Source of the DNA: Novosphingobium resinovorum
Lineage (GTDB): Bacteria > Pseudomonadota > Alphaproteobacteria > Sphingomonadales > Sphingomonadaceae
Assembly: GCF_001742225.1 (NCBI RefSeq)
Contig: NZ_CP017075.1
Location: 3,056,001-3,120,000 of the forward strand
DNA: 64,000 bases
Direction: 5' to 3'
Positions 5,438-49,115 of the stretch are shown in pieces (position 1 is the first letter of the stretch; each line of letters opens with the position of its first letter). Under the pieces are notes generated by a model. That model was not told where the DNA came from. It did no database searches and saw nothing but the letters and a program-made list of their open reading frames with translations. A program made the position numbers and the translations under genes.

Positions 5438-5758
5438 ATGAAGATGGAAGCAGAAGCGCTCGGGTTGATCGGCGACCATTTTCGCCGCGCCCGACTGGCC
5501 GCCAGACTGACCCAGGAGCAGGTGGCCGATCTGGCCGGCATATCGCGTCCGCGCTACCGCGATGTTGAAACCGGGGCGGCGGCAGCACGCACCACGACCT
5601 TGATCAATATTGCCCGAGCGCTCGGTCTGGAAATGATGCTCGTTCCCCAGGCCATGGTGCCCGCCATCGAGGCGCTCTTGCGCCCTGAGGCTGAAGAGGA
5701 TCGCCCCGCCTTCAGCCCGCAACCGGAGAGCGACGATGATAGCCGCCCGCACCGCTGA
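5438..5758 (+). CDS. hipB: HipB-type XRE antitoxin
   Basis: A 106-residue protein with an HTH_3 domain at about residues 10-65 (FRRARLAARLTQEQVADLAG, then ISRPRYRDVETG). The start at 5438 has the ribosome binding site AAAGGA; upstream in-frame sequence is not protein-like. It overlaps hipA by 23 nt, the usual antitoxin-first order. Family knowledge: HipB binds HipA and represses the operon through inverted repeats upstream. In a mobile element the pair can act as an addiction module. Confidence 0.85.
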   Translation: MKMEAEALGLIGDHFRRARLAARLTQEQVADLAGISRPRYRDVETGAAAARTTTLINIARALGLEMMLVPQAMVPAIEALLRPEAEEDRPAFSPQPESDDDSRPHR

Positions 5759-28849: not shown

Positions 28850-29221
28850 TCAAGGTCCGTGCAGTATCACTGCGGAACCGGCGGACAGGATTTTCTCGGC
28901 TGCGCGAATGCTGCCAGCCATGCGCGCAGCTTCAGCCCAGACCGAGATCGGGAATATGCCGGTAAAAAGCACGTCCCGCTCGATCCCCATGCCGAAGGGG
29001 AGCCGGATCGCCTCCAGCTCACCGAAGCACCAGCTACCGAGTTCGGGATAGCCGATGTCGGCCAGACCAAACATGATGTCGCCGTCCTCGTCCAGCTCGG
29101 TCGCAAGCCAGACGCCTGCGCCAAGGGGATTGTAGAATTTGACGACGGGGATGTGATCCACATCGCTCTGCCGGCCATTGGCGAGGAGCTGCGCGCGCTG
29201 TGTGCGGGTCAGGAGGATCAT
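28850..29221 (-). CDS. DUF2958 domain protein
   Basis: A 123-residue protein matching DUF2958: LLANGRQSDVDHIPVVKFYN, then PLGAGVWLATELDEDGDIMF and GLADIGYPELGSWCFGELE. Found beside ArdC genes in many proteobacterial elements; function unknown. Its ATG overlaps the ardC stop (ATGA), so it is translated with ardC and may belong with anti-restriction. Confidence 0.85.
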   Translation of the reverse strand: MILLTRTQRAQLLANGRQSDVDHIPVVKFYNPLGAGVWLATELDEDGDIMFGLADIGYPELGSWCFGELEAIRLPFGMGIERDVLFTGIFPISVWAEAARMAGSIRAAEKILSAGSAVILHGP

Positions 29222-30177
29222 GCCGCAGCCCTCCGCTCGATGAGATTGTCGTGCGGTTCGGCATGCTCCTCATCGGGCAAATGCGCCAACAGCCAGTCGG
29301 CCGCCTTGCTGGCCTGAGAGGCGGCGCGGACGATGGCGCGATTATCCTCGCGCAGCACTTCGAGCCAGGAACCGATATAATCGGCATGGCGCACGGTCGG
29401 CACGATTCCGAGCGAGGCGCAGCAGAAAGCCGCGTTCATCTCGGCTACCAGTTCCTCGAAGGCGTATTTCTTGGTGCCGAAGCTGCCCGAAAAATCCCGC
29501 CCCAACCGCGAGGCATGACCCGTGGCGTGGCCCATCTCGTGCAGGGCGGTCCTGTGCCAATTGATGGACTCGAAATAGGCAGCCGGCGGTGGCACCTGGA
29601 CGTAGTCGAGCGACGGGACATAGAAGGCACGATCGCCGCCGATGCGGACGTCGATGCCGGTTGCGCCGATCAGTGCCTCGACTCTCGGCTCGATCATGCC
29701 GGGCGGCGGTGGTGGCGCTTCAACGGCAATGTCCTCGGGCAAACCCTCGCACTGCGCCGCGTTGAACACGGTAAAGCGCTTCAGGAAGGGAATGCTGCCT
29801 GCTTCTTCGCCTGTTTCCCTGGCGCGGCGTTTCTCGTCCTCGGGGGTGAAACGGTCGGCATAGACCACGGTGGTGCCACGCTCGCCCTTGCGGACATTGC
29901 CGCCGAGCGACAGGGCCTGGCGGAAGGTGAGCCAATGTTGGGTCGGATAGCCGTATTGGACCACGGCGCCCCAGAGGATCAGGACGTTGATCCCGGAATA
30001 CTGCCGCGCCGTCGCGGCGTTCCTCGGCATGGCCAGCGGTGCTTTCGCCGCCGCCGTCCCCCAGGGCTGGACCCAGGGCAGCCGCCCGTCCTCCAGCTCG
30101 CCGATGATCTTGTTGGTGATGTCGTCGTGGAGATTGCTGCGGGCGCCGCCTGCGCGCGCGCTGTCCTGTCTGGCCAT
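29218..30177 (-). CDS. ardC: ArdC-type anti-restriction protein
   Basis: A 319-residue protein. The N-terminal ssDNA-binding domain includes LHDDITNKIIGELEDGRLPW and QYSGINVLILWGAVVQYGYP; the C-terminal zincin domain has the metallopeptidase motif RTALHEMGHATGHASRL (HEMGH) near residue 220 and the third ligand region FEELVAEMNAAF. Family knowledge: ArdC protects entering plasmid DNA in the recipient from restriction. The ATG at 30177 has GGAG 8 nt upstream, directly after the radC-type leader. It is the last core gene before the second cargo block. Confidence 0.9.
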   Translation of the reverse strand: MARQDSARAGGARSNLHDDITNKIIGELEDGRLPWVQPWGTAAAKAPLAMPRNAATARQYSGINVLILWGAVVQYGYPTQHWLTFRQALSLGGNVRKGERGTTVVYADRFTPEDEKRRARETGEEAGSIPFLKRFTVFNAAQCEGLPEDIAVEAPPPPPGMIEPRVEALIGATGIDVRIGGDRAFYVPSLDYVQVPPPAAYFESINWHRTALHEMGHATGHASRLGRDFSGSFGTKKYAFEELVAEMNAAFCCASLGIVPTVRHADYIGSWLEVLREDNRAIVRAASQASKAADWLLAHLPDEEHAEPHDNLIERRAAA

Positions 30178-30185
30178 CGGAATGT

Positions 30186-30236
30186 CTCCGCGACGGGCGC
30201 CGGAGGCCACTCCTCCAACCCTCAACCCGTCACGGA
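30186..30236 (-). ncRNA. radC-type RNA leader, copy D (upstream of ardC)
   Basis: Transcript order: CCGTGACGGGTTGA, TTGGAGGAGTGG, CCGGCGCCCGTC, GGAG, 8 nt, ATG. GACGGG (30192-30197) pairs with CCCGTC (30226-30231). It is closest to copy A. Confidence 0.6.
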
Positions 30237-30459: not shown

Positions 30460-33400
30460 TCAGTTTGGCCTAAGCGATATCTGAAGCTCCGATAATTCTT
30501 GGATAAAGTCGTCGTCCATACCCGAGAAGAGGCTAATCAATTCATCTTGGCGCGGTTGGCCAAAGGCCAGCCGGTAAGTGGCCAGAGATGTGATGAGATC
30601 CTTGTAGCGTTCCTTCTCGCGGCTGAAGGGCGGAATGAGGACGACCCGCTCAATCTTGTGATTACCTGGGTAGACCCAGAACGGAATGATGTCTCCCGAG
30701 CGGCCCTTTGAAACCTCATCAGCTTGCGCTGCCTCAAACATGGAGACCCATGGTGATTGCCTGCTCTGCGCAGCGAGAGGAGTGGCCGAAAAAGCAGCGA
30801 CGACATTGCGCCGAACAGCATGGTTTTTGTAACGATGGACCCGTCCTTCACGCTGCTCGATATCAACAGGGTTCCTCGGGAGGTTCCAATGCACAATCCG
30901 GGAGCAGTAGGGATGAAAATCCAATCCTTCCTGTCCAATCGACGTGGAAGCGAGAACAAATGGCCGAAACGGCGACTTGAAAGCTGCCTGGACCACGGAT
31001 GTTCGGCGTACACCCTTTTCTTCCTCGGCTTTTGTTGCAAAACGCATGGCGAAACGGGCGCGCACTTCGAATGTCTGATCATACAGACGACCCGCTTTTG
31101 TCGACCAGTGGTCCAACGTGATCTGGGCAGGGCGCAAGGCGACCACAGCAATCACGTTTGATGCAATGATCTTCGCGCGATCCTGCGGGGCTAAGTTTTC
31201 GGCGCGCTCGCTTTCCAGGACGAGCTGAAGATATTCGTCCAAAACCGCCGGAAGGTCGTTTCGCGCGGCGTGCTCTATGATATCGCGCCAATAATTGAGA
31301 GGCGAGGTTTCAGCGAGCAATGCGCGGGTTTCGGGTTGATTGTATAGGCTGCGAAAACCGAGCGCGATCCCGATTGATGCACTGATCAATACGGGGTCGT
31401 CTGTGGCGATCTCCGGGCAAAGTCGCGAAAGTGCACGCAGCGCACATACCGCAGGCGAGCCAAGCGCAAGGCTGGCGAGCTTTTCGATCACTGTGTCAGG
31501 GTCGACATCGCCCTGATGCTCGTCAGTTTGGAGTGCATCGCGAAGTGTGGCGATGGTCCGAGACATCGCTCCATGTTCGTCGTGCGCCTCATGGTCAACG
31601 ACGCCGACATTCGACCATTCCACTTCGCGCTCGAGCGTCCTGTCCAGGGCAAGTGCGAGGAGCCGGTCACTTGTTTGAGCGAATTCTGCGATGGCGTCCA
31701 CCGCAAGCTGTTCACGCAGAACCATGCAGGCTTGAGCGTGCAAAATATCGTAGCTTTCAGCGCGGCCGAACCGCCGCTCCAAAGCGAGAGGATCAACAAG
31801 CTCTGCCAACGACGGCGACGGGTAGAGCATCGGCATAAGCTCATCGACGCCAATCGGCCTGCTGGTCCGGCTGACAAGATCCGGCGACATACCCATTCGG
31901 CGGCTCGCCTCGTGCGAAAGCAAAGCCGCGATCGCATCCGGCACCATTGACCAATCTGAGAAGACCAATGCCTTTGTGGCCGACCTTGGCGTGCCGAATG
32001 AGGGACGCGATGGCGGGATCCAGAGCGATCGATCAAGGGCGTCATTGAACGCCAGATCCGCAAGGGCACGCATCCTCCCATTGCGAAATGGAATCGCCGC
32101 GTAGTCCTCAACCTGTTTTTTGCTGATGAAGTGCGTTGAGGCCTCTCTAATGGCCTTGCACAGTTCTGCGGCCGGCTTGGGTTTCAATGCCTGAAGCCGG
32201 TCGCGCAGCTTGTACCCCCTCATGAAGTTCAACAGGTAAGGAGCCGATTTCCAGTACTCGACGATGCTGGGAGCACCTACGAGTTCTGCAACTTTCGCTA
32301 CTGCCTTCGCCTCTCGCAGATCATCGGTGGCGATCGCTACCTCGGGCATGACTTCTTGGACGAGCGAATTGCGATCTTCGGTAGAATCAACGCGTTCAGT
32401 GCGGGCAATGACCTGGCTCAGGATACCATGTAGTCTGTCTCGTTGCGCTACTGCTGCCGCTCGGGCATCTGGCATCGACTGGAGCGATCGCCTGAACTTG
32501 ATGAGCTCGCTCTTCAATTCCTCTACGCGAGCCGGGCCTTCAGCATCGCCGAACAGAAAGCGCATTGTCCGTAAAAAGTCGTCGTAATGCTCGCCCTCTT
32601 CCGGCGCATCGCTGCTCAGCGTTAGCATGCGATAAGGCGTGGCGGACAGAAGCAGGAGCCTCGCCTTCGACCCATCCTCCCCATTGTATGAGAACAAGGC
32701 CCGCGCCAATTCTGCGGCAGCTGCCTTTTCAGGCGCTACCTCGACATCATGATCGTGCAGGAGTTCAGCGAAGCGCTGGAATTCGTCGAGAATGATGAGG
32801 TCCGGCGTCAATGCGTCCACACAGATCTTCGCAAGCATTCGGCGCAACTCACCGATCATCGCTGCGGGGCGCTGGTCGTCGGGGTAATGGGGATGCTTGT
32901 GCCTTCTGGCGAGATCTGCCGCCTCACGAATCCTTTCGATAAATGTATCATCGACCACCCGGTTAAACTTATCAGCGATATCTCGCGAAATCCGTTCGCT
33001 TCGGATCCATGCCGTCCAGCCCGGCCAGTTCTCATCGGAAACGCCGCCACGGAACACTCGTTGGATGCCGCGATGGCGCAGACCGATACGCTCACGGAGC
33101 ATTTCAAAGATCAGCGCCCGTTCCGGTGCAGTCCCAAGGGATGACTTAAGGTCTAGCGCCGTTCCAGGGGTGAGGCTGATCAGATTGATGGTTCGCGAAG
33201 CAATCCCGCCTTCCTTCTCGATCTCAAGCGGCAACAGCGTAAGGCGGGTATTGAGTGGCTTGGTTGCAGAGCCCAGCCCATTGAGCGACTTGATGTTCTG
33301 TTCAGCAATCGCCTGATTGGAGCAGATGTAAACGATGTCGATGCGGTCGACCTTGCCCAGCAGGTGTTCGATGGTCTTCGCAATCACGCCGCGGGCAACC

Positions 33401-33546
33401 ATGGTTTTCCCGAGCCCGACCTCGTCAGCGACTAGGAACTGATCTGTCGGTGATTTATCCGTGAACAGCCTTCGAAAGACGTAGTCGACAGTCGTTTGCT
33501 GAAACGGCTTCAGCAACGCAAGGTGCTCGACAGCGCTGTAAGTCAC
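30460..33546 (-). CDS. SNF2/RapA-type helicase, cargo operon gene 5
   Basis: A 1028-residue SF2 helicase. Walker A VADEVGLGKTMVARG near residue 40; DEAD-box-like LIILDEFQRFAELL near residue 255; motif III LLLLSATPYRM near residue 300; C-terminal STSIGQEGLDFH and IEQREGRVHRYKNH (motifs V and VI) near residue 900. Between them is a long helical insert. The GTG at 33546 overlaps the preceding stop (GTGA), so I prefer it to an ATG 15 codons earlier inside the PLD gene. Last gene of a tightly packed operon. Likely translocates on DNA to deliver or regulate the nuclease partners (inference). Confidence 0.82.
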   Translation of the reverse strand: MTYSAVEHLALLKPFQQTTVDYVFRRLFTDKSPTDQFLVADEVGLGKTMVARGVIAKTIEHLLGKVDRIDIVYICSNQAIAEQNIKSLNGLGSATKPLNTRLTLLPLEIEKEGGIASRTINLISLTPGTALDLKSSLGTAPERALIFEMLRERIGLRHRGIQRVFRGGVSDENWPGWTAWIRSERISRDIADKFNRVVDDTFIERIREAADLARRHKHPHYPDDQRPAAMIGELRRMLAKICVDALTPDLIILDEFQRFAELLHDHDVEVAPEKAAAAELARALFSYNGEDGSKARLLLLSATPYRMLTLSSDAPEEGEHYDDFLRTMRFLFGDAEGPARVEELKSELIKFRRSLQSMPDARAAAVAQRDRLHGILSQVIARTERVDSTEDRNSLVQEVMPEVAIATDDLREAKAVAKVAELVGAPSIVEYWKSAPYLLNFMRGYKLRDRLQALKPKPAAELCKAIREASTHFISKKQVEDYAAIPFRNGRMRALADLAFNDALDRSLWIPPSRPSFGTPRSATKALVFSDWSMVPDAIAALLSHEASRRMGMSPDLVSRTSRPIGVDELMPMLYPSPSLAELVDPLALERRFGRAESYDILHAQACMVLREQLAVDAIAEFAQTSDRLLALALDRTLEREVEWSNVGVVDHEAHDEHGAMSRTIATLRDALQTDEHQGDVDPDTVIEKLASLALGSPAVCALRALSRLCPEIATDDPVLISASIGIALGFRSLYNQPETRALLAETSPLNYWRDIIEHAARNDLPAVLDEYLQLVLESERAENLAPQDRAKIIASNVIAVVALRPAQITLDHWSTKAGRLYDQTFEVRARFAMRFATKAEEEKGVRRTSVVQAAFKSPFRPFVLASTSIGQEGLDFHPYCSRIVHWNLPRNPVDIEQREGRVHRYKNHAVRRNVVAAFSATPLAAQSRQSPWVSMFEAAQADEVSKGRSGDIIPFWVYPGNHKIERVVLIPPFSREKERYKDLITSLATYRLAFGQPRQDELISLFSGMDDDFIQELSELQISLRPN

Positions 33547-35405
33547 CGGCGCCCCCTCTTGCTCGTTACAAGCGGCTTGAAATTCTGCCACAGTGCCAGA
33601 AACTCCTTGGGAACAATGGTTTCTCCACCGTCTGGGTCTTCAAGCCGTTCGATTAGCCGGCCGATCTCTTCTAGCTCGCCGCTTTCTAGACTGAGCGCCC
33701 GCATCATCGGCTCGAGAAGCGAGGTGTTTCCCTCGCCCAAGCGACGAAGCCACTGACCTTCGCCGCCCGTGTCGCTTTCCAGAAAGCTTCCTTCACCAAG
33801 CGTGCCGAGCAGCAGACTGAGATAACGGAAGAAGTTGTCCACGTTCGCGATGTGGGCACGAAGAACAGCTGCGTCCCGGCCTTCTGGAACGCCGACCAAG
33901 CGCGCACCAAGTGTGAACGTCAGTTCCACCTTCGTCGCTTCATCGAGCAGCCGAATTCCGAGCCAGCGCGTAACGTCGCCAAGAGGAACAGCACCCAATG
34001 CAAGCTCTGTATCGGAGCCACACAGCAACCTGCCTACATCATATCCGCGTTCATTAGGGACTGTGATCGCCCGCACGAAGCACCTGACGCCATCCGGCAG
34101 CAGAACGTGCTTTTCTTTGGTGGCAATCTGCAGTTCAAGGTGGATCAGGTCGTCCTCTTCGGAACAGTGGAGATCAAGTGGCAGCGCCGAGATGTCTGAC
34201 CGCATCTTCTCCAGCGCCTTTTCCGCCGCCATGGCCGCGTCCTGCGTCGGTGGTTCGCTCGGCGTGTAGGTGGCGAGCAGCCGCTGGAACGCCTCGGAGA
34301 ACAGGACGTTGTCGATCGTACCCATGCGCGTCTTCGGACCGTCCAATGTTGCCATCACCTCGACATTTTGCGTCTTCCCGCGCTTGGTGGGAATCATCGC
34401 AGCCGTGGTAGCATTTGCCGAACCGAGGTGGATCTGGAGGCGCGATCCTCGCTCGACGAGGTAGGCTTTCGCATGAAGTCCCTCGAGATCGGCCGAACTT
34501 GGCCCATCCACTCCTTCAGCCTCATACTCCGTTGCACGCTCATCGAGAGTCGAGATCGTGAAAAGCTCGCGTGTCTCGGGATCTATCCAGTCGAGTTCCT
34601 CTGCTCTCGAGATGAGCCGGAGATTATCTCGCGAGCCGTATCCGTCGGACAGCCTTTTCAGCGCGGGAGCAGAGATAAAAGGTGAAAGAACCGCCAGCTT
34701 CTCGCCTCGGGGAAGCGCCCAGCCGTCACCATCAAGACCATTGACGGCGAAGCTGACCTTTGTTGCGCCAGCAGGCAGGCCCTCCCACCAGGTTCGTTCC
34801 AAATCCGAGATCAGCGAAGGCAGGAACTTGGGCGGCGCAGGCCGGGTGGCTGGATTGGCTAGCCTGGGCAGGGCCCGCAGCAACTTCGTCAGCGCGCGGT
34901 TATTCTCATTCTCCTCATCGTGTACTGCACCATCGAGAGCCAAAGCGAGATCCCAGCAACGATCATTTGTGAGGTTCCTCGACAGGATTGCCACTCTCAT
35001 TCGAACGGGATCGGTTTTCTTTTCGGGCTCGAAACGAATACACCACAGCTTCGGATGGAAGGCGCCTCCACCCGGCGCCGCAACTTCCACAATCGTCTTC
35101 TCGTAAAGTGCCATCAGCCTCGCAGCATTCGGGTGAGCCTCCTTGATGCGGCCCCGATCGCAATAGACGGCAATGCGGTCGGCCATCCGCTCGACACTCT
35201 GCAGCAACGCGAGAGGGCTTCGCAGCATTTCGTCTCTGTTCTCAGCATCGCGGAACACGATGCTGATCGGAATGGCAAGCGCCGTCTCAAAATCGAGTGA
35301 GTACGTCGTAGCGACGGCATGCCCGAACCTGTACCCATCCGGGGCACGAACAAGTGCAGTATAAAGCTCACGGTTCTCAGGGTCGAAAGACGAATCAGCC
35401 GACAT
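33543..35405 (-). CDS. Phospholipase D-like protein, cargo operon gene 4
   Basis: A 620-residue protein with two PLD half-sites. The first is GGAFHPKLWCIRF (H117, K119) followed by LSRNLT near 142; the second is LEGLHAKAYLVERG followed by HLGSANATT in the middle of the protein. PLD-fold proteins with HxK motifs in such settings are usually DNA nucleases, as in DISARM DrmC, rather than lipases. The ATG at 35405 overlaps the DUF6361 stop by 11 nt; the longer ORF start lies within the DUF6361 gene. Partners on both sides suggest a nuclease-helicase complex. Confidence 0.78.
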   Translation of the reverse strand: MSADSSFDPENRELYTALVRAPDGYRFGHAVATTYSLDFETALAIPISIVFRDAENRDEMLRSPLALLQSVERMADRIAVYCDRGRIKEAHPNAARLMALYEKTIVEVAAPGGGAFHPKLWCIRFEPEKKTDPVRMRVAILSRNLTNDRCWDLALALDGAVHDEENENNRALTKLLRALPRLANPATRPAPPKFLPSLISDLERTWWEGLPAGATKVSFAVNGLDGDGWALPRGEKLAVLSPFISAPALKRLSDGYGSRDNLRLISRAEELDWIDPETRELFTISTLDERATEYEAEGVDGPSSADLEGLHAKAYLVERGSRLQIHLGSANATTAAMIPTKRGKTQNVEVMATLDGPKTRMGTIDNVLFSEAFQRLLATYTPSEPPTQDAAMAAEKALEKMRSDISALPLDLHCSEEDDLIHLELQIATKEKHVLLPDGVRCFVRAITVPNERGYDVGRLLCGSDTELALGAVPLGDVTRWLGIRLLDEATKVELTFTLGARLVGVPEGRDAAVLRAHIANVDNFFRYLSLLLGTLGEGSFLESDTGGEGQWLRRLGEGNTSLLEPMMRALSLESGELEEIGRLIERLEDPDGGETIVPKEFLALWQNFKPLVTSKRGRR

Positions 35406-36561
35406 CGACAAGCTCCCCGAGATAACGCCGCGCAATTCCCCAGCGGAAATCCAGCCGTGCGAGACCTGAAGCGCCTGACCAGCGTTCGAGGGGTGCATCG
35501 TGGAGCAGCCGGGCCTTCATCCGCTTCAGCGACTGTTCGCGCTTTCTGAGCAGATCGATGGCTTCGTGGTCTGTCTCCAACGACTTAGAGCTTTGCAGCG
35601 CAATGGCGAGCCAGCCTCTAACGAACTCCCGAGAGGACTGGGTAAGGTTGTGAGTGGTCAATCCAACGATCTGGAAAAGGTCGTCCAAGTCCCAGCTTTG
35701 CAGCGCGAGGTGCTGAAGATCTCCGCGCCAATCCTCAAGTAATTGGCGGTAATCTTCGATCAATGCGGATGCTTCGCCATGGGTTTTGGCATTCGGGCGC
35801 TCCGCCGCTCGCAATGCAAGCAGCAGATTGTAGAGGAGGCTTGCACCGTGCATCACGCCCGAGAAGCGTTCCGCATGGCGGAGAATGGATCGATTGCGGT
35901 CTGACACGGTGTCCTCGCGGACCTGCCATGCCCAATCCTCGCTGAAGTTCTTCTGCTTAGAGGCAAGTTCGTTCAGCAAACTTGCCTTGGCACTGCCAGC
36001 AATACGATCGCGCAGGAAACCAACTTCCTCAGGCAACAGTGTAAAGCTCGTTTGCTCGAACAGGTTCTCGGGCGCATTGGGAAGGCCCGTGCCCCATAAT
36101 CTGAGATCATGATCCTTCAAACTCTCCCGCCCATAGGACAAGAATGTTGCCTGATTGCCCGCTAGCGTGCGGATGCCAAGCGTATGCATGCCAGCCCAAT
36201 AAACGCTCGACGCGAGTCTCTTCAGGCTCCTTCCGGCAAGGCGGCCAATCACATCTTCGCGCTCTCCGCCGCGCAAAAGCGCTTCACTCAGTTCGAACTC
36301 AAGATCCCGGGCGATAATCGTTCGCTCTGCTTGACTGGCCTTGCGCTGCTGTGCTTCCCGATAGATCCAGGGAACGAACAGCATGTAGCGTAGCCGTGTC
36401 TGAATAGTGCTGGTGCCCGGGAAAAGGAGATCAGCCAGCCCGTCCCTGATCGTACCCAGGCCAAGCTCGTCACGTGCCTCTGGCTGCTTGAACAGATCGA
36501 TGAGGGTCTGAGCTCTCCGCCGTTCTTCAGGGTCAAAATCAATCCAGGCAAGGTAGGACAT
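35395..36561 (-). CDS. DUF6361 family protein, cargo operon gene 3
   Basis: A 388-residue protein starting MSYLAWIDFDPEERRRAQTL and containing GTIRDGLADLLFPGTSTIQT and RYMLFVPWIYREAQQ, the pattern I associate with DUF6361. Mainly helical, no catalytic motif seen. The family tends to occur beside PLD-like and helicase genes, so it may be a sensor or scaffold. It begins 4 nt after the AddA-like stop and overlaps the PLD gene, linking the two halves of the operon. Confidence 0.7.
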   Translation of the reverse strand: MSYLAWIDFDPEERRRAQTLIDLFKQPEARDELGLGTIRDGLADLLFPGTSTIQTRLRYMLFVPWIYREAQQRKASQAERTIIARDLEFELSEALLRGGEREDVIGRLAGRSLKRLASSVYWAGMHTLGIRTLAGNQATFLSYGRESLKDHDLRLWGTGLPNAPENLFEQTSFTLLPEEVGFLRDRIAGSAKASLLNELASKQKNFSEDWAWQVREDTVSDRNRSILRHAERFSGVMHGASLLYNLLLALRAAERPNAKTHGEASALIEDYRQLLEDWRGDLQHLALQSWDLDDLFQIVGLTTHNLTQSSREFVRGWLAIALQSSKSLETDHEAIDLLRKREQSLKRMKARLLHDAPLERWSGASGLARLDFRWGIARRYLGELVDVG

Positions 36562-36565
36562 CGGG

Positions 36566-39500
36566 CTACTCGTTGGGTGAAAGTGGTTCGGCGGCGTCCG
36601 GCGACCCGCTGCCGGCCTGTGGCCCGGCCAGTTCTAGCCGCCCGTGGTCGACCCAGAACACCGCCACCCCTTTCAGCGGGTGGTGCGGGAACAGCTTTGC
36701 CACCAGTGCCACATAGCTTGACAGCTGTGGCCAGTAGGAACCGAAACCCTCGCCCCCGCCGCCGGATTTATGGTCGATAAGTATGCATCCCCCTGATCCA
36801 ACGGCCAGAAGATCGATGGTGCCGGGGATTTCGGCCCCCTCTGGCGAGAACCCAAGGACCGGGATTTCGGCGCGCAGGTCGGTATAGCCCTCGGCCGCCA
36901 GCCAGTTTCTCAACGTCTCGGCGCGCTCGGAAACCAGCGTGATCGTGGTTTCCTCGAGCCCGGTGGCAGCGGCCAGTGCCGGGATGAGTTCAGGCCGGGT
37001 CAGGCAGGTACGCAAGGCCAGATGGAGGGCCGTGCCGCGTGTGGCGTCGTTAAGCGTCTTGGGCCATGGCGCACCAAGGTCGATACTGCAGGTTTCCGGC
37101 GCAGCACCCGCACTGCGGGTTTGTGACGGTTGCAGTCGCCAGGGCGTCAGGGGCGCTGCGGGCAAAGCCGTCGCCGGACCGAAGCGGGAAGCCACAGTGG
37201 TCGCCCCATTCGCATATTCGGTAAAGCCCGCCTGGTCGGGCAGTTGCGTGATGACCGCAGGGCAGTCCACGCCACCGATCCGCAGGCAGCCGGCCGCGAT
37301 CTGCGGGGCGCAACTGTCCTCAAGAAGGTGGAACAGGTTTTTTGCCTCGAGCGCGTCTTCCTCGCGATCCTTGAGAAAGCCTGGCCATTCCAGCACCAGC
37401 CGGTCACGGGCACGGGTCAGCGCGACATAAATGAGATTTTTCGCATTGGCCTCAAAATCCGGGCGGCGGTCTTCGATGAAGCGACGCTCGGCCTCGGGGG
37501 CCGCAAACCCAGGCGTGTGGATCAGCGCGGCAGAGCCAAGCACAACGGCCATATCGTCGATCCGGTCGAGCGCATCGAAACGCGTTGCGGTAGAGCCGGC
37601 CCATTCCTCGATGCCATTGTCGAACTCGGCCACTACGGTGATCGGCCATTCGCGCCCCTTTGAGGCATGCCAGGTCACGATCTCGACCGCCTCGGCACTG
37701 TTGGCTGCCGGATCAGGACGGCGGTCGAAGTCACGCTCATCCGCGCGGGCATCGAGCCAACCGAGGAACACTTTCGCGGTCTCGCCATGGAAGCCCGAGG
37801 CAGCCTTGAGGTCGCGATGCGCGGCCTCGAACTCACCGGCCTCGGCCTCGAGGCGCAAAAGATCAGCGCGGGACTGGGCCGCATCGGGCTGGCTATCGGC
37901 CCAAAGCCGCAGGTCGGCGGCATCAAGCACCAGATCGAGGCCCGCAGCAACCGGCAGACTTGCCAGCCGGGCCGACAGGGCTACAAGCCGCATCAGCACC
38001 GGATCATCCGCCAACCGCCCTTCGATCTGTGAGGAAAGCGCCGCTTGCAGGGGCAGCGGATCGGGGCCAAGCGTGCGCAACAAGAGCCCCGAATGAATGT
38101 CGGCGGGGTTCGCGGCAAAGGCCAGCGCGGCGCGGGCTGCGGTAACGACGGGGCTTTGTGCCCAGCCATCTTCACTGATGCGCACGGGAACGCCGCGAGC
38201 GCGCAGCTCCTCGGCATAGCGGGCGGCGGTAGTGTGGCGGCATACGAGGAGCGCGATATCCGAGGGCCGTACCGGGCGCGTCGCCTGCGTGTAACGATCG
38301 GTGATGGTATCGCCGTCGGTCAGGATGCGGGCGACACGCTCGGCGATATGCTCCTGCGGCTTCGATGCTGTACGTACGCCGCGCGATTTGGCCGCATTCA
38401 GCACTTCAATGGCAGGACCAGCGACCGGATCGCGGGTTGGCACCAGGGGATTGTAGCCCGCACCAAAGAGGCTCGCACCCATCGCATTGACGAAGTCCAT
38501 CACCGCAGGCGTCGATCGCCAGTTGCGGTCCAACGGCTGCGTTGCATCGGGGTTCGCCGCCGCCAAGGCCTGCGAAAGCCGCGCATCGGCACCCTGAAAG
38601 CCCATGATTGACTGTTTCACATCGCCCACCAGCAGCGTGCGAGGCGCATGCGCCCCGAGTTGCCACAAAAGCGCGAATTGCACGGGGTTGGTGTCCTGGA
38701 ATTCATCGATGATGACACAATCGATTTCATCCAGCACGGCCCGCCGCACAGCCGGATCTGTCCGTAAGAGCCGCTCGGCCCCCACGATCATGTCGGCGAA
38801 ATCGATTAGGCTAAAGGCCTTCTTGCGGGCATCATAGGCCTCCATCACCTCTTGCGCACAGGCGATCAGACACGACAGATGCAGCTTCGCATCCGCAAGC
38901 GGACCGGGATGGGCGTGCAGGACATCAGCTGCCTCGATGATGGCGGTCGCCAGATCGTCATAGCCGTCGGGTGTTTTCGTGCGGCCGTTCGAGGTGAACA
39001 ATCCGCGCAGGCCTTGCCAGAGGCCCCAGTCCCGGCCGAGCAGCCCTGGATCACGGGACACGCGGCGGAAAAGAACAAGGTTCTTCTCAAGCGTCTCACG
39101 CGGGCCTTTGGCGGTAACGGTGGCCATGCCGCCTTCGGGAAAGGCCGCGACCATCGCCAGAACTGCGGCAGTCAGCGCAGCACCGGCGGAAGTAGGATCC
39201 GTCAGCACTTCGCCGTAAACCTCATCAAGCCGCGAGAGCGCTTGCGCGATCAGACCGGGATCTCGCCCCTTGTCACCAAGGCCGCGCAGAAGGTCGATCA
39301 TCGAAAGCACCCTACCGCGCAAGTTGTCCTCGACTGTCGCGCCTTTTTGCCAGTTCGCCTCATAGCCGAAACGCTCGGGCTCGGCCTTGATCGGGTCGAG
39401 CGATTTGGCATGGGCCAGGGCCTGACGGATCAAAAGGTCACGCTCGGCATCGCCCAGATGGCGCGGCTGCGGTGAGGCACCCGCCGCCAGCGCGTGCTCA

Positions 39501-39769
39501 GTCAGAAGCCTGAGGCCAAGCCCGTGGATCGTGGAGACATAGGCACGTTCAACCGCCATTGCCTCGGAAACCAATCCATCAGCCAAAAGCCCGGCGCGGA
39601 TCCGTTCGCGCAACTCGCCCGCTGCGGCCTCAGTGAAGGTGACAGCAAGGATGCGTTCAGGCCGCACCACGCCGCGCTTCACCCAGTCGGAAAGCTGGGT
39701 CTTGATGCGATGGGTTTTGCCCGCGCCCGCGCCGGCGGGGACGATGACCAGTCCCTGATCCATGGTCAT
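36566..39769 (-). CDS. AddA-like UvrD helicase with RecB nuclease domain, cargo operon gene 2
   Basis: A 1067-residue SF1A protein. Walker A IVPAGAGAGKTHRIKT at residues 9-24; ILAVTFTEAAAGELRERI; Walker B CVIIDEFQDTNPVQF; LLVGDVKQSIMGFQGAD; PLDRNWRST; VTWHASKGREWPI; and YVALTRARDRLVLEW. The C-terminus carries a RecB-type nuclease: IPGTIDLLAV, CILIDHKSGG and YWPQLSSYVALV. It pairs by a 4-nt overlap with the AddB-like gene. Chromosomal AddAB repairs breaks; this copy sits in mobile cargo with divergent partners, so a defence role is inferred. Confidence 0.85.
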   Translation of the reverse strand: MTMDQGLVIVPAGAGAGKTHRIKTQLSDWVKRGVVRPERILAVTFTEAAAGELRERIRAGLLADGLVSEAMAVERAYVSTIHGLGLRLLTEHALAAGASPQPRHLGDAERDLLIRQALAHAKSLDPIKAEPERFGYEANWQKGATVEDNLRGRVLSMIDLLRGLGDKGRDPGLIAQALSRLDEVYGEVLTDPTSAGAALTAAVLAMVAAFPEGGMATVTAKGPRETLEKNLVLFRRVSRDPGLLGRDWGLWQGLRGLFTSNGRTKTPDGYDDLATAIIEAADVLHAHPGPLADAKLHLSCLIACAQEVMEAYDARKKAFSLIDFADMIVGAERLLRTDPAVRRAVLDEIDCVIIDEFQDTNPVQFALLWQLGAHAPRTLLVGDVKQSIMGFQGADARLSQALAAANPDATQPLDRNWRSTPAVMDFVNAMGASLFGAGYNPLVPTRDPVAGPAIEVLNAAKSRGVRTASKPQEHIAERVARILTDGDTITDRYTQATRPVRPSDIALLVCRHTTAARYAEELRARGVPVRISEDGWAQSPVVTAARAALAFAANPADIHSGLLLRTLGPDPLPLQAALSSQIEGRLADDPVLMRLVALSARLASLPVAAGLDLVLDAADLRLWADSQPDAAQSRADLLRLEAEAGEFEAAHRDLKAASGFHGETAKVFLGWLDARADERDFDRRPDPAANSAEAVEIVTWHASKGREWPITVVAEFDNGIEEWAGSTATRFDALDRIDDMAVVLGSAALIHTPGFAAPEAERRFIEDRRPDFEANAKNLIYVALTRARDRLVLEWPGFLKDREEDALEAKNLFHLLEDSCAPQIAAGCLRIGGVDCPAVITQLPDQAGFTEYANGATTVASRFGPATALPAAPLTPWRLQPSQTRSAGAAPETCSIDLGAPWPKTLNDATRGTALHLALRTCLTRPELIPALAAATGLEETTITLVSERAETLRNWLAAEGYTDLRAEIPVLGFSPEGAEIPGTIDLLAVGSGGCILIDHKSGGGGEGFGSYWPQLSSYVALVAKLFPHHPLKGVAVFWVDHGRLELAGPQAGSGSPDAAEPLSPNE

Positions 39770-42312
39770 TCCTCCTCGATCTGACGGATGAAGGCGGTGA
39801 CGAAGGCCGAGCCATCAGTCAGCGCATAGGGGGTGAAGCCGGCCTCTTTCTTGAAGAAGGCTTCATCCTCGGATGTGTTTAGCACCACCCGGCCTGCGCC
39901 GAGTTCCTCCAGCCGCTCGGCCAGTTTTTCTACAGCGCCTTCATTCACTGCATCGCCCATGTCGCGGGCAGGCGAGCCATCAGTCAGCGGCAGGCCGGAT
40001 GTCAAAAGACCGCCGTCATTCATCAGATGATAGGCAACGGCGACCTTGCGGCCGATCAAGGGATCCATCCCGTCGCCCTCGCGCCGATGCGGTCGCGCGA
40101 TCATGTCCCGATAAAGGCCTGCCTGCAGATCCCAACCCGCTTCCATCCGCTTACGCCGCCCCGAAGTGCTGCTTTTCTTGTGGTCAACGATCAGCAGCGC
40201 GCCATCCGGCAGCTCGATGATCGCATCCGCCTTGCCATGCAGGCTGATGCCATGCGCCTCACCGGCCAGCCAGATCTCGTTACCGATAATCTTTGCCTTG
40301 AGCGCCAGCAGATGGTCGCGCCAGCGCAGAGCGGCGGCCATGATCTCGCGCTCAAGCCCCCTGCGCTCCATCTCCCATGACGGGCTGCGCAGGTAGCCGG
40401 CATGGCGGATCAGAGCGCGCTCATAGGCTTCGGGCACCGCGGCGGCCAATGTGTCGGGGTCCGGGATGGACAGATCCTTCAGGAAGACATGTTCGAAAAC
40501 GTCATGCGCGATATTGCCCTTGGCCATGACGTCCAGTTCCTCGGCCGACCAGGACATGTCCTCCGCCCCCACCTCGCCCAGGAGCCAGGCGAGCGGACTG
40601 ACCAGCAGCGTTTCCAGCCGCGAGGGCGATTGCGGTTTCGCCGTGCCATCATCCTTGCGCCGCAAGGAGAGTAGGTCTTGGCCCGCAAAATCCAGCGCCT
40701 CAGGCAGTTCGAGAGCCTCAGCCAAAGGCGGCAGATGATGATGCGCGACCGGCCAGTCGCCGGGTGAAAGACGCGACAGATCGGTGATCAGGTCGCTGGC
40801 ATCCTCGACGCCGGAGATGGCCCGCGCCACTAGCGAAAGCCCCGCCGAGGGTTGCAAGCGCCCACCCGACAGATCGCGCCACGGAACGAGGAAGGTGATG
40901 CTGTCCGTCACCGCCTGCAGCTGCTGGTCGAAGAGCGAAAGCCCCTGCGCCAGCCCCTCGGCCCGGCCACGCAATGCTAGGCCGGTGGCTTCGCGGAGCG
41001 CAGCAATCTCGCTGTCCAGAAACAATGGGTTGGCGCGCGGCCGGGTGGGGTAAAGCCCGTCGGTGAAATCGGTCACGATCAGGTGCCGACAGGACCGCCA
41101 AGGACTTTCATGGGCGGCCCACAGGCTGACGCCTTCCAGATTGCGGTCCGGCTCCGCGCTGGTGTGCGGCATGACCTGAATACCGCGCAAGATCGCCTCC
41201 CAGTCGGGGGCGCCTTCGCCCGGCGGGACCGGCAGACGCGCCCGGACCTGATCGCCCTGCGCAAGCTGATCGCAAATGCGATCGAGCAGAAAACGCAACT
41301 GCGCCAAGCTGCTAGCCGAGGCGCGGATGTCGTCCCAAAGTTCCTTGTGCGCAGGAGTGGCGGTCAAGATCGCGCCGCGGAAGTCACCGCCCATCAGACT
41401 TTCGGACAGATCGCGCCCGGTCTGGGCGGACCACGGCATCAATGGCGAAAGCGCGAGGCTCGCCAGTACCATCGCTGGGGTCGGCGGGCGTTTGGCCAGC
41501 GTCAGATGCAGCGCGGTCTCACCGATGATATCGCGTTGGGGCAAAGCTGCGGGCAGACCCGAGAGCGGCACGCCCTGGGCGGCAAAAGCGCGGGCGATCT
41601 GGCGCGGATCACCTGCGGTAAGCACGGAAATCTCGCGCGCCGGAAGGCCGTCATCGATCAGCGCACGGGCGCGGGCGGCAGAGAAGTCGGCCGCAGCCGC
41701 CGGATCGCGCAGACCGAAGAAAGCGAGGCTGCCATCGAGAGGCGCGGCTTCGAGCTGCTGTGCGGTCACCCCGCCCTGTAGGGCGTGGAGCCGGCTGCCG
41801 AGTGCCGCCGCTCGGAGTCGAGGGGAAGCCGGAACCGAACCGAACTCCTCCTTCAACCGGGCATAAAGCGTCTGCATCGCGGCAGGCGCCAGCGGATCGA
41901 TCGAGCCTTCGACCACCGGAACCGGGTCGAGAAAGCGCCCATTGGAGAGGTTCAGCACATGGCGCAGCGGTGCAAGACCTTCGGGCAGACCGTCCCCCAA
42001 TGTCCGCCATAGACCGATCAGTGCCGAGAGATGCCGCTTTGCCCGGCTGTCAGACAGGTGATCGACTACAGGCACCCGCAAGTCAGGCGTGGCCAGCACC
42101 AGATCTTCCAGCGCCGTCGTCACCGCCGAAATCGTCTCGACCGGTGCATTGGCGAGGCTATCCGCCCAGACAGGATCAGGCACCTCGGATATGGCGCGCC
42201 CCGGCGACCACTCCGGCGGGATCGGAGCCAGAGATAGCTCGGCCAAGCCGGTATCTGTCAGCCGATACTGCAAACCGGAACGTGGATCGATGACGAGGAA
42301 CGGGTAATGCAT
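39766..42312 (-). CDS. AddB-like PD-(D/E)XK nuclease, cargo operon gene 1
   Basis: An 848-residue protein. The C-terminal 200 residues hold a RecB-type nuclease: SLHGKADAIIELPDGALLIV, then DHKKSSTSGRRKRM and WDLQAGLYRDM, i.e. the D...DxK...Q..Y set. The N-terminal 600 residues resemble the inactivated helicase part of AddB (for example HLIVTDFTDGLYPTRPRANP), with no Walker A found. First gene of the operon; start ATG at 42312 with a 335-nt region upstream. It overlaps the AddA-like gene by ATGA. Confidence 0.8.
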   Translation of the reverse strand: MHYPFLVIDPRSGLQYRLTDTGLAELSLAPIPPEWSPGRAISEVPDPVWADSLANAPVETISAVTTALEDLVLATPDLRVPVVDHLSDSRAKRHLSALIGLWRTLGDGLPEGLAPLRHVLNLSNGRFLDPVPVVEGSIDPLAPAAMQTLYARLKEEFGSVPASPRLRAAALGSRLHALQGGVTAQQLEAAPLDGSLAFFGLRDPAAAADFSAARARALIDDGLPAREISVLTAGDPRQIARAFAAQGVPLSGLPAALPQRDIIGETALHLTLAKRPPTPAMVLASLALSPLMPWSAQTGRDLSESLMGGDFRGAILTATPAHKELWDDIRASASSLAQLRFLLDRICDQLAQGDQVRARLPVPPGEGAPDWEAILRGIQVMPHTSAEPDRNLEGVSLWAAHESPWRSCRHLIVTDFTDGLYPTRPRANPLFLDSEIAALREATGLALRGRAEGLAQGLSLFDQQLQAVTDSITFLVPWRDLSGGRLQPSAGLSLVARAISGVEDASDLITDLSRLSPGDWPVAHHHLPPLAEALELPEALDFAGQDLLSLRRKDDGTAKPQSPSRLETLLVSPLAWLLGEVGAEDMSWSAEELDVMAKGNIAHDVFEHVFLKDLSIPDPDTLAAAVPEAYERALIRHAGYLRSPSWEMERRGLEREIMAAALRWRDHLLALKAKIIGNEIWLAGEAHGISLHGKADAIIELPDGALLIVDHKKSSTSGRRKRMEAGWDLQAGLYRDMIARPHRREGDGMDPLIGRKVAVAYHLMNDGGLLTSGLPLTDGSPARDMGDAVNEGAVEKLAERLEELGAGRVVLNTSEDEAFFKKEAGFTPYALTDGSAFVTAFIRQIEEE

Positions 42313-42647: not shown

Positions 42648-44216
42648 TTACCCCCCCGGATAGAATTCGAATAGTGCATCGGCTGCGTCCGGACGGTGTA
42701 ACAGCCGGTCATGATCGCGCGCGAGGCGGCCGATAATATCGGCACCCTGAATGACGGTCGCCCATGGATGCGACAGCACGGCATCGGGGGTCATGACGCC
42801 CAACATATTGCCTGCAATCGCGCCGGTGGAATCGCTGTCGCCGCCGTGGGTCACCGCGATGCGCAGGCACTCGTCCAGGCCGCTCCCCCGGAGGCAGGCG
42901 TAAAGTGCGATGGCCAGCGCCTCATCGGCCGTCCAGCCGCCGCCCAGGCTTTCGACGGTTTCGGGCCGCCCGTCTTGCCTCGCCGTAAGAGCTGCGTGAA
43001 TGGCGTGGGCGGTCTCATCGCCACCGTCCAGCCGGGCATACTCCGTGGCGATCCGCTCGGCGGCCCGCTCCAGCGGCTCGCCCGCTGCGACATCGGCCAG
43101 CATCTCCGCCCAGGCGGCGGCTGCGAGTTGGCCGGTGATATGGCCATGGGTCAGGGCCGAGGTCTCGATCGCCCAGGCTCTCACCTGATCGCGCGGCGCG
43201 ATCAGAGCAACTGGGGCGACCCGCATGATCGTGCCGCAGCCCTTGCTGTCATTGCGGGCCGGGTCGCCGAAACGGCCGCTGGCACCCAGGGCCGACATAC
43301 ATGTCATGCCCGGGGCGCATTTTGACCAAAGCCTGCGGTCCTCGATCAGACCTATATCATCTGTCTCTGCTCGCGAATGCCCTTCCTGCGTCCGGTACCA
43401 TCGCAGCAGCGCGTGATGAACGACGGAAGGCGGGTGACAAATGCCGCGCAACTGGCCTCGGATCCGTGCGCGGATCATGCCCTCGGCGGTGAAGAATGTC
43501 ATCTGCGTGTCATCGGTAATAGCGCCCCGCTGTCCGCCATAGGGGGGCAAGTCGGTGAGCCCCGCCGGAAAGCGCGCCTGGATGGCCACCAGAGAGTGGA
43601 ATTCGATGTCGGCGCCGAGACTGTCCCCCATGGCGCCGCCCAGCAAGCAAGCCTGCAAGGTCTTGGCGCTGTCGCTCGACCCACTGGCCTGATCCCGCAA
43701 CCATTGCTCTTGTGCGCGGGTTTCAACGGCGCCGGGCCGAACAGAACGCACTTCTGCGATAGCCCGCGCCGCGCTCTGTCCCCGTTCGATCATCAGCAGG
43801 GCCGCGATCGTCCCGGCACGGCCCAGACCGCCCCGGCAATGGATTAGAACCTTGCCGCCACGTTCGAGTCTGTCATGGATCCGGCGCGACAGCCCGCGCC
43901 AGAGTCCTGCACTGTCGGCGGCAGGCACATCGACATCACGGATCGGGAAATGCAGCCATTCCATGCCGCGCGCTTTCAACGCCTCGCCCAGCCCGCGGAC
44001 GGCCAGCATGTCGAACTCGTGGTCCTCGATCAGCGTGAGCACCATATCTGCGCCCCAGGACGCAACCGCATCAAGATCAAGCGCCAGATCACGGGCCCAA
44101 GCTGCGCCGAACACGCTGTCCCCCTGCTTGCCTGGGCAAAGTGTGAGGCCGATCTGGCCGTTTGCAAGCGGCAGGCTGTCAATGCGAAGGGGGTGGGTGG
44201 TGCTCGTGCGGGACAA
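42648..44216 (-). CDS. Dual-specificity phosphatase fused to ADP-ribosylglycohydrolase
   Basis: A 522-residue two-domain protein. Residues 1-170 are a tyrosine/dual-specificity phosphatase with the active loop LIHCRGGLGRAGTIAALLM (HCx5R) near residue 125. Residues about 185-510 are an ADP-ribosylglycohydrolase of the DraG/ARH type: LLGGAMGDSLGADIEF, AITDDTQMTFFTAEG and GGDSDSTGAIAGNMLG, which supply the two-magnesium site. It may reverse ADP-ribosylation and phosphorylation, for example on ADP-ribosyl-1-phosphate-like or doubly modified substrates (inference). It follows WYL and AAA+ genes on the same strand with 143 nt between. Confidence 0.85.
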   Translation of the reverse strand: MSRTSTTHPLRIDSLPLANGQIGLTLCPGKQGDSVFGAAWARDLALDLDAVASWGADMVLTLIEDHEFDMLAVRGLGEALKARGMEWLHFPIRDVDVPAADSAGLWRGLSRRIHDRLERGGKVLIHCRGGLGRAGTIAALLMIERGQSAARAIAEVRSVRPGAVETRAQEQWLRDQASGSSDSAKTLQACLLGGAMGDSLGADIEFHSLVAIQARFPAGLTDLPPYGGQRGAITDDTQMTFFTAEGMIRARIRGQLRGICHPPSVVHHALLRWYRTQEGHSRAETDDIGLIEDRRLWSKCAPGMTCMSALGASGRFGDPARNDSKGCGTIMRVAPVALIAPRDQVRAWAIETSALTHGHITGQLAAAAWAEMLADVAAGEPLERAAERIATEYARLDGGDETAHAIHAALTARQDGRPETVESLGGGWTADEALAIALYACLRGSGLDECLRIAVTHGGDSDSTGAIAGNMLGVMTPDAVLSHPWATVIQGADIIGRLARDHDRLLHRPDAADALFEFYPGG

Positions 44217-44359
44217 ATGTATCTCCTTGAACCGGGTCTCTGCTTAATAGAGCAGGGATACGTCAAATCCGGTCGTATGAATCTTTGCCACGGCATTGAT
44301 GCGAGCACAATCGCAGGGCATTCTCTGGGTCACGTGGTTCGCTGAAGACTTATCTCCGA

Positions 44360-45298
44360 CTATCCTGGCGATAGGACCTCCACCCGATCCCCCCATCGAG
44401 CCAGATACCACTCCATTTCCTGCCGTCCACCGGCCCTGAACCGCACGACCAGCGATCGATCCTCCAGCCGTTCCAATGTCTGCTTCGGGTGGAACACATA
44501 TCCCGCCGCCTCGTCCGCCACGTCTGGCAGGAAACGCCATTCGACATCCTGTGGATCATTATCGCGCCAGATACCGAAGCTTTCGGACAGCCATTCCTGC
44601 AAATCAAACCCTGCGGGCCGGGTATAGACGTCAGGCTCCAGCGAAACCCGCTCAAACCCGGCCAGAGCGAACAGGCGCAGATCATCCTGGTACTCACTCC
44701 AGGCCAGCAGGTATTGGCGGCCTTGCCCGAAGAGCATGGCGACAGGACCAAGGCGGGCGTTGCGTGACAGTTTGCCCGTGCTGCGAGCGCGGTGGTCGGT
44801 CGAAACCATGACGCCCGCAAGAATTGCCTCGCGCAGGGCCGAGAGTATCTCGGGTGCGATTTTCTCGCGTGGACCTGGGCGGAAGGCGACCCCATCGGCC
44901 ATAAGCTGAGCCTCCAGATCGGCCGCAACCGTCCGGCGTCGATCTGCACGAAACATTGCCTGCACCTTCGCAAGCAGACGCTCCAGCGTTTCGGCGGTCA
45001 AATCATCGCCTTCACGCCGTGCGATGGCGGCTGCCCTGTGTCCGGCGGTCAGTTCGTCCAGTGTCGGCTCAACCATTTTTCCCAAAGAACCCGGCGGAAA
45101 GCGCCAGTATTTCCGACCGCTGTCGCCGAGGATTTCCTCGATCTGCGGATAGGTATTGCGCACAGCGTCGCGCATGCGTTCTGCCGTCCGGCGCGACACG
45201 CCGAATTCCCGCTCGATATCGACAAGGCAAATCCCTTCGGCCGAGCCCTGCATCGTCAGAGCCAGTTTCTGCAGATCTTCCTGACGGGCGTAGCGCAT
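44360..45298 (-). CDS. WYL-domain transcriptional regulator
   Basis: A 312-residue protein: N-terminal HTH_11 (CLVDIEREFGVSRRTAERMR, residues 29-48), a central linker, then a WYL domain (RARSTGKLSRNARLGPVAML, GQGRQYLLAWSEYQDDLRLF) and a C-terminal WCX-like part. WYL proteins bind nucleic acids or nucleotides and commonly control defence islands. GGAGG precedes the ATG at 45298. It sits between the AAA+ ATPase and the phosphatase-ADP-ribosylhydrolase, and probably senses damage or infection to regulate them. Confidence 0.85.
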   Translation of the reverse strand: MRYARQEDLQKLALTMQGSAEGICLVDIEREFGVSRRTAERMRDAVRNTYPQIEEILGDSGRKYWRFPPGSLGKMVEPTLDELTAGHRAAAIARREGDDLTAETLERLLAKVQAMFRADRRRTVAADLEAQLMADGVAFRPGPREKIAPEILSALREAILAGVMVSTDHRARSTGKLSRNARLGPVAMLFGQGRQYLLAWSEYQDDLRLFALAGFERVSLEPDVYTRPAGFDLQEWLSESFGIWRDNDPQDVEWRFLPDVADEAAGYVFHPKQTLERLEDRSLVVRFRAGGRQEMEWYLARWGDRVEVLSPG

Positions 45299-45349
45299 GG
45301 TGCCTCCGGCCAAATACCGCGCCAGCTTCGCGGCGCGGCATAGGGGGTG

Positions 45350-47353: not shown

Positions 47354-47617
47354 GCGGCTCTCCATCGTTCCAGACAGAGATAATGGGGCAATGCGACAGA
47401 TATGGACGTATCAGTCAGCGCGGCGGCACACGGAGACAGTGACCGTCATGTGGGACACGACGAATCCAAAATGCTGCGCAAGCTTTACGAATGGAACCAA
47501 CCAATCCATCGCGTGCGTGGCCGGTTCTAGAGATGTTTGGAACATGGAGGTGTTCTTACTGCTTGCGCGAACACGATGGCGAGGTCTTGCCAAAGCCGCC
47601 TGTCCTCCATCAGCAGG

Positions 47618-48973: not shown

Positions 48974-49115
48974 TACGCGTTTCCTCCTTGGAGAGCCGGT
49001 TGCCTCCACGGAAGCACCACGGAAGCAGGCGGATGAAAGTTGGAGCGAAGTTCCGGATACAGATTTCGGCGGGGGAAACCGAATTGTCCATACATTTCAA
49101 GGCAGTGTAGTATCA

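Follow-up and report, generated by a model that had tools for sequence, protein, structure and literature searches.

Azaca has been described as a three-gene system, and a PLD protein and an SNF2 helicase are also components of DISARM. A PLD domain is listed for Azaca in a passage that cites Millman et al. 2022 (PMC10952713), and Azaca is named in genome surveys. Among openly accessible papers, our literature search gave none on the mechanism of Azaca and no report of an AddAB-like accessory with Azaca; a search on ZacA, ZacB, ZacC and DUF6361 gave no relevant paper. A preprint (PMC13192584) describes a synergy between Druantia III and Zorya II for which intact RecBCD is required, as a DNA-processing hub common to both, and which Gam and Gp5.9 block. 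The locus analysed here joins Azaca to an AddB-AddA pair (AddBA); the Azaca trio was already known, and the fusion with AddBA is a new form of it.

The window is a stretch of 64,000 nt from Novosphingobium resinovorum (contig NZ_CP017075.1, positions 3,056,001 to 3,120,000). An operon at 30460-42312 on the minus strand consists of five intact, tightly coupled ORFs, transcribed in the order AddB, AddA, ZacA, ZacB, ZacC:

39766-42312, minus strand: AddB-like protein of lineage m, with a C-terminal RecB-family PD-(D/E)XK nuclease (848 aa)
36566-39769, minus strand: AddA-like UvrD helicase with a C-terminal nuclease motif (1067 aa)
35395-36561, minus strand: ZacA, a DUF6361 protein (388 aa)
33543-35405, minus strand: ZacB, a PLD-fold protein with two HxK motifs (probably 620 aa; the ORF frame to 35498 gives 651 aa)
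30460-33546, minus strand: ZacC, an SNF2/DEAD-type helicase (probably 1028 aa; the ORF frame to 33591 gives 1043 aa)

None of the five ORFs has an internal stop. AddB and AddA overlap by 4 nt (ATGA), and a 4-nt gap separates AddA from ZacA. Judging from its relatives, ZacB more likely starts at 35405 than at 35498, which gives an 11-nt overlap with ZacA. ZacC more likely starts at the GTG at 33546 than at 33591, which gives a 4-nt GTGA overlap with ZacB. Relative to the nearest relative, L003, dN/dS is 0.11-0.22 in all five genes, and they therefore look maintained. Promoter and terminator scans gave signal at the shuffle level only. The coordinates and junctions (4- and 11-nt overlaps and one 4-nt gap) confirm the five coupled genes of the initial annotation, which had also placed the operon in mobile cargo beside an ArdC gene and an integrase gene, both of which were located. 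Its limits for the operon were too narrow, since three further codirectional genes lie ahead of AddB. The genes around the operon are as follows:

29218-30225, minus strand: ArdC-type protein, next to the ZacC end (ArdcN 144.6 bits, MPTase-PolyVal 170 bits)
42648-44216, minus strand: ADP-ribosylglycohydrolase fused to a dual-specificity-phosphatase-like domain (ADP_ribosyl_GH 207.6 bits)
44360-45313, minus strand: WYL-domain regulator (WYL 34 bits, WCX 37.5 bits)
45350-47365, minus strand: AAA ATPase (AAA 129.7 bits; weak resemblance to IetA, 95 bits)
47618-49009, minus strand: tyrosine integrase (Phage_integrase 56.8 bits)

The block of AAA ATPase, WYL and ADP-ribosylglycohydrolase genes (42648-47365) accompanies lineage-m AddBA both at loci with Azaca and at loci with the t2A trio described below, and the ADP-ribosylglycohydrolase gene precedes AddB in L002-L005, L007, L014 and L017. 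Elsewhere in the window are genes for a replication initiator RPA (2028-3173, minus strand), a HipA-type toxin (5736-6977, plus strand) and a Strawberry-notch-type helicase (18629-22951, minus strand), which give the region the look of a plasmid or conjugative element that has integrated. The same element also carries a member of the candidate defence family PDC-S06 (13213-15510, minus strand, 500 bits).

The DUF6361/PLD/SNF2 trio is Azaca, a known phage-defence system, and protection by this copy is predicted from its sequence. The three genes are adjacent on one strand in the ZacA-ZacB-ZacC order, and their products match the PADLOC profiles at near full length: ZacA with 381 bits (residues 2-385 of 388 on profile positions 3-391 of 396), ZacB with 530.9 bits (profile 2-584 of 586) and ZacC with 1025.8 bits (profile 7-1016 of 1019). 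ZacA also matches Pfam DUF6361 with 666 bits. ZacB gave an empty Pfam domain search; its HxK motifs are FHPK at 147 and LHAK at 341 in the 651-aa frame, and the histidine that the initial annotation called H117 of the PLD protein is that of FHPK in the 620-aa ZacB. ZacC has a Pfam Helicase_C match of 30.8 bits and, in the 1043-aa frame, the motifs DEVGLGKT at about residues 56-63 and QREGRVHR at 913; a pattern scan did not find a DEAH-box motif. A single match to ZacB (26%) was found among phage sequences. In the PDB, sequence searches gave nothing for ZacA, ZacC or AddB, helicase-core matches only for AddA, and one weak match for ZacB (7clg, E 0.006). The window differs from Azaca as modelled in that AddB-AddA is joined directly upstream of ZacA, whereas the PADLOC models listed for Azaca are limited to ZacA, ZacB and ZacC, and the pair is missing from the distant Azaca loci L028-L031. 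The Zac genes have a lower GC content than AddBA in most of the loci compared (near equal in L008), so this step is not special to the window, and the idea that the trio was recently inserted as low-GC DNA was rejected.

The AddB-AddA pair, on the other hand, fits no named system. AddB matches Pfam PDDEXK_1 (62 bits) with intact motifs (GKAD...DHK at 693, QAGLY at 730), and it has no Walker A motif by pattern scan and no PADLOC family match. AddA matches the UvrD helicase of Pfam (151 bits), its C-terminal PDDEXK_1 match is just below the cut-off (20.9 of 22 bits), and its motifs are GAGAGKT at 13, IDEFQD at 354, GTID...DHK at 983 and QLSSY at 1015. Among the best 25 of 45 families, the PADLOC matches of AddA are to the helicase core only, in families other than its own kind. 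As in canonical AddAB, AddA has helicase motifs and both subunits have RecB-family nuclease motifs. Profile comparison aligned AddA along most of the canonical AddA of the host (99.85% probability over 957 columns) and the C-terminal part of AddB with the canonical AddB (94% probability, 154 columns). Unlike the housekeeping enzyme, AddA scored 144.5 bits against addA_alphas, where the cut-off is 860.75, and is therefore not the housekeeping AddA; the NCBIfam matches of AddB include no addB family. The possibility that the pair is the housekeeping AddAB was rejected, as canonical AddAB is found elsewhere in the host genome, at C1:513849-520240, with 978 bits for AddA and 741 bits for AddB, above the family cut-offs. 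A genome-wide search with addB_alphas passed this canonical locus and gave 23 bits for a second AddBA copy of the host on C2.

Gabija resembles the pair in combining a nuclease with a UvrD-type helicase, and AddA matches GajB over the helicase core with up to 114 bits among its best 25 of 45 families. The window AddB, however, is a PD-(D/E)XK protein without a PADLOC match, and GajA, the OLD-family nuclease, has no match in the five proteins, for AddA among the best 25 of 45 families. Membership in Gabija was therefore rejected. DISARM, with which the initial annotation had compared the locus, is not the nearest relative, because ZacC matches DrmD with 45 bits, in its C-terminal helicase part, and the Azaca model with 1026 bits; ZacB likewise matches its Azaca model far better. 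DrmABC had no match above the weak helicase-core level in the five proteins, among the matches listed, and membership in DISARM was rejected since the similarity of ZacC to DrmD and DrmA is confined to the helicase core at 45 bits or less. Shango shares with Azaca a directly attached AddBA, of the r lineage, beside its SngABC trio; it is here only a fellow partner of AddBA. The defence reading of the locus stands, but it was incomplete, as the trio is a named system, Azaca.

The pair and the trio occur together far more often than by accident. In 23 of 36 unique ZacA loci, a codirectional AddA gene ends at a distance of -1 to 191 nt ahead of ZacA, and this arrangement is absent in the other 13. 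The 36 loci came from genome contigs (12), plasmids (12, fetched from 47 records), class and phylum samples (ZacA in 8 of 385 and 5 of 329 genomes, respectively) and an AddA search. Duplicates (L001, L034-L039, L044, L054, L074) and G257 (22 bits) were excluded, one of 19 Cronobacter records was taken, and ZacA of L012 is fragmentary. By source, the arrangement was found in 10/12 genome contigs, 7/12 plasmids, 2/5 new class-sample loci (present in L053 and L055, absent in L056, L057 and L058) and 1/4 new phylum-sample loci (L079), and also in the window, L075 and L076. These last three are not found through a ZacA search alone, and without them the figure is 20/33. Three plasmid records outside the 36 (H14, H16, H18) have r-lineage AddB at the same distance by coordinates.

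Loci without the arrangement include Halomarina, Cronobacter, B. elkanii and Haliscomenobacter; one archaeal, one gammaproteobacterial and one Bacteroidota plasmid (L028, L029, L031) are among these exceptions. In L010, AddA lies downstream of ZacA in opposite orientation, L013 carries AddBA nearby on the opposite strand, and in L022 a short ZacA is immediately preceded by an IS21 element. Among genome-contig ZacA loci of more than 80% identity, all seven carry lineage-m AddA, as far as the contigs extend. In the reverse direction, this AddA type was found in 3/296 genomes of the order (E<=1e-100), and all three have a copy that adjoins ZacABC. Plasmid records of lineage-m and lineage-3 AddB had Azaca in 0/9, with the t2A trio in four and neither in five. 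In the class sample, AddBA and Azaca lie on separate contigs in G060, G065 and G288, and G175 and G271 belong to one genus; a hypergeometric value of 1.3e-10 for co-occurrence in this sample (7 ZacA and 9 AddB genomes of 385) mixes searches (one of 372 genomes), assumes that the same genomes were drawn and ignores kinship, and was not relied on. As a control, the ORF families found within 10 kb of ZacABC were counted at 17 representative loci; apart from the Zac genes, AddA came first (9/17, seven of the nine codirectional upstream). AddB is found in 8/17, as four m/3 and four r proteins that do not cluster together, and the next families are WYL (5/17) and one family in three loci. Rarity of the pair and the trio together would have spoken against the initial annotation; with 23/36, it was not observed. 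Azaca also occurs alone, however, 13/36 loci being without the arrangement, and the pair also stands beside other systems or has no recognised partner, so that the locus consists of two modules joined rather than one candidate five-gene system. A wholly new five-gene system was likewise rejected because the trio matches Azaca. Overall, the earlier interpretation is partly supported.

Three lineages of AddB lie upstream of ZacA: m (the window, L002-L007, L012), lineage 3, which is about 36-38% identical to m (L075, L076), and r (L008, L009, L011, L023-L027, L032, L033, L053, L055). The AddA tree places L079 together with L021 and lineage 3 (support 0.93), although its best profile is m. Blastp among 13 AddBs gave no match between r and m/3, and profile comparison of r with the other lineages gave 80% over 307 columns. 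The AddB nuclease motif is present in 14/14 sequences (four m, including the window, four lineage 3 and six r), and the AddA nuclease pattern in 4/4 m, 0/3 lineage-3 and 5/6 r sequences. Scans with both AddB alignments found no relatives in viral contigs. The ZacC tree requires at least three changes of AddBA type among the 20 tips with the codirectional arrangement, and five when L010 and L013 are included (22 tips). Both numbers are lower than in any of 1000 shuffles, which indicates inheritance of the AddBA type inside a clade and switches from one clade to another. Between the window and L005, dS is 1.16 for AddB and 1.38 for AddA, against 0.50 for ZacA, 0.15 for ZacB and 0.11 for ZacC; the AddBA and Zac halves have therefore recombined even within lineage m.

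AddBA also has other partners. In L014, L017, L018 and L052, the lineage-m pair precedes a trio without a name, which consists of t2A (a protein of about 400 aa without Pfam or PADLOC match), a PLD protein with two HKD motifs and an SNF2 helicase; in L021 this trio comes before the pair. The second gene of this trio, like ZacB, is of the PLD kind (96.1%). Homology of t2A to ZacA was rejected (hhalign probability 0.1), and 104 t2A homologues were found. L052 is the host's second AddBA copy (C2:1528000-1547900, 82% identical), located directly after BREX genes; BREX also stands beside the lineage-m pair in L018. The second gene of the trio is interrupted by opposite-strand ORFs in L052, and in Pantoea L066 a t2A trio occurs without AddBA, with AAA-ATPase-like and WYL genes.

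For the r pair, 15 of 64 plasmid records were taken. SngC of Shango stops 2 nt before r AddB in L060 and L087, the placement in L069 is near-identical, and in L082 the pair is convergent to Shango (called by PADLOC in L060, by match to the L060 proteins in L069 and L082, and by annotation in L087). The r pair also stands beside BREX (L061; L072, BrxC 1318 bits), CBASS (L064, cyclase 437 bits), Hma (L068, HmaA 1593 bits), a DrmD-like helicase (L081, 616 bits), type III restriction-like genes (L062, L067) and ubiquitin-like genes (L065, L073). On the AddA tree, copies with non-Azaca partners are interspersed among Azaca-linked copies. No recognised partner was seen for m/3 copies in L015, L016, L019, L020 and L086 and for r copies in L063, L084 and L085. 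A DEAD/DEAH-type helicase of about 1112 aa lies 14 nt after r AddA in L060 (18062-21400) and L061 (18062-21403) and is adjacent in L068 (2408-5749); it may belong to the r module as a third gene. Genes for multiubiquitin, ThiF and DUF6527 recur beside r AddBA, though by annotation or search some loci have fewer than three of them; they were seen upstream of r AddBA in L009, L011, L023-L025, L032 and L033 and downstream in L087 and L073.

We consider the locus to be, with a probability of roughly 55%, Azaca with a translationally joined, mobile end-processing pair of the AddAB/RecBCD type that would enhance DNA-acting defences. The sequences themselves show the identity of the trio, the intact motifs, the coupling, the recurrence upstream of ZacA in three lineages, the exchange of the pair and its other defence partners. 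The canonical AddAB that the host already has, and the rank of AddA as the commonest neighbour family, also favour this reading. Since the pair recurs beside Azaca and other defence systems, it may be a portable helper that attacks viral DNA, and since both modules also occur apart, it would be an enhancer rather than an obligatory part. ZacA, ZacB and ZacC might recognise phage DNA that invades or replicates; ZacC, as a helicase, might remodel it or translocate along it, and ZacB, as a PLD nuclease, might nick or cut it. AddBA could then load on the ends made by ZacABC, or on phage replication ends, and unwind and degrade the DNA. Such a portable pair, dedicated to the AddAB/RecBCD step, would be useful where phages inhibit the host enzyme, either by bypassing this inhibition or by raising the dosage. 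By analogy, the dependence of Druantia III-Zorya II on RecBCD is the nearest precedent for such a helper. The 13 of 36 ZacA loci without the arrangement, and three of the four new phylum-sample loci among them, count against the helper reading. So do the nine plasmid records of lineage-m and lineage-3 AddB that lack Azaca, the r copies with no recognised partner, the three lineage-3 AddAs that lack the nuclease pattern, and the separate contigs of the two modules in G060, G065 and G288. Genes of defence islands can also come to lie side by side without working together.

The main rival is that AddBA is an independent two-gene defence, Gabija-like or a stand-alone RecB-like system, which shares promoters and islands and works alone. 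This view is simpler than that of a helper, and it fits the GajB/UvrD-type matches of AddA, the copies without a recognised partner and those whose partners are divergent or convergent and thus not on one transcript (L061, L065, L068, L081, L082). Sharing of islands does not, however, predict that three lineages keep one order and strand with almost no gap ahead of ZacA, nor AddA as the most recurrent family across ZacABC loci, and we regard this rival as rather unlikely. Translational coupling across all five genes, together with the constant presence of lineage-m AddA at the genome-contig loci of more than 80% identity, would also agree with a single obligate five-gene complex, of which canonical Azaca would be a reduced form. 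Such a complex is improbable: unrelated AddB lineages replace one another upstream of ZacA, the two halves each occur apart, and the dS values of the window and L005 (1.16 and 1.38 for AddB and AddA versus 0.15 and 0.11 for ZacB and ZacC) show that they differ in history. Least probable by far is a DNA-repair or maintenance enzyme of the mobile element with no defence role. The ArdC, ParB-like and integrase genes of the element would suit it, but the host already has AddAB, and the recurrent neighbours of AddBA are defence genes on many replicons.

Beyond the enhancement of Azaca, we tentatively suggest a wider role, which we hold to be somewhat less probable than not. AddBA may be a portable end-processing hub, a substitute for AddAB/RecBCD that exists in at least two deeply separated lineages and is plugged into at least eight kinds of defence, counted as Azaca, the Azaca-like trio, Shango, BREX, CBASS, Hma, DISARM-like and type III restriction-like systems. 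It would supply degradation of ends or ssDNA intermediates and so free these defences from a host enzyme that phages inhibit. A shared helper of this kind, if true, would account for the source of end-processing in unrelated defences while RecBCD or AddAB is blocked by phages, and there would be one active-site pair whose loss bears on several defence systems. Gene lists drawn from minimal defence operons may miss such detachable partners.
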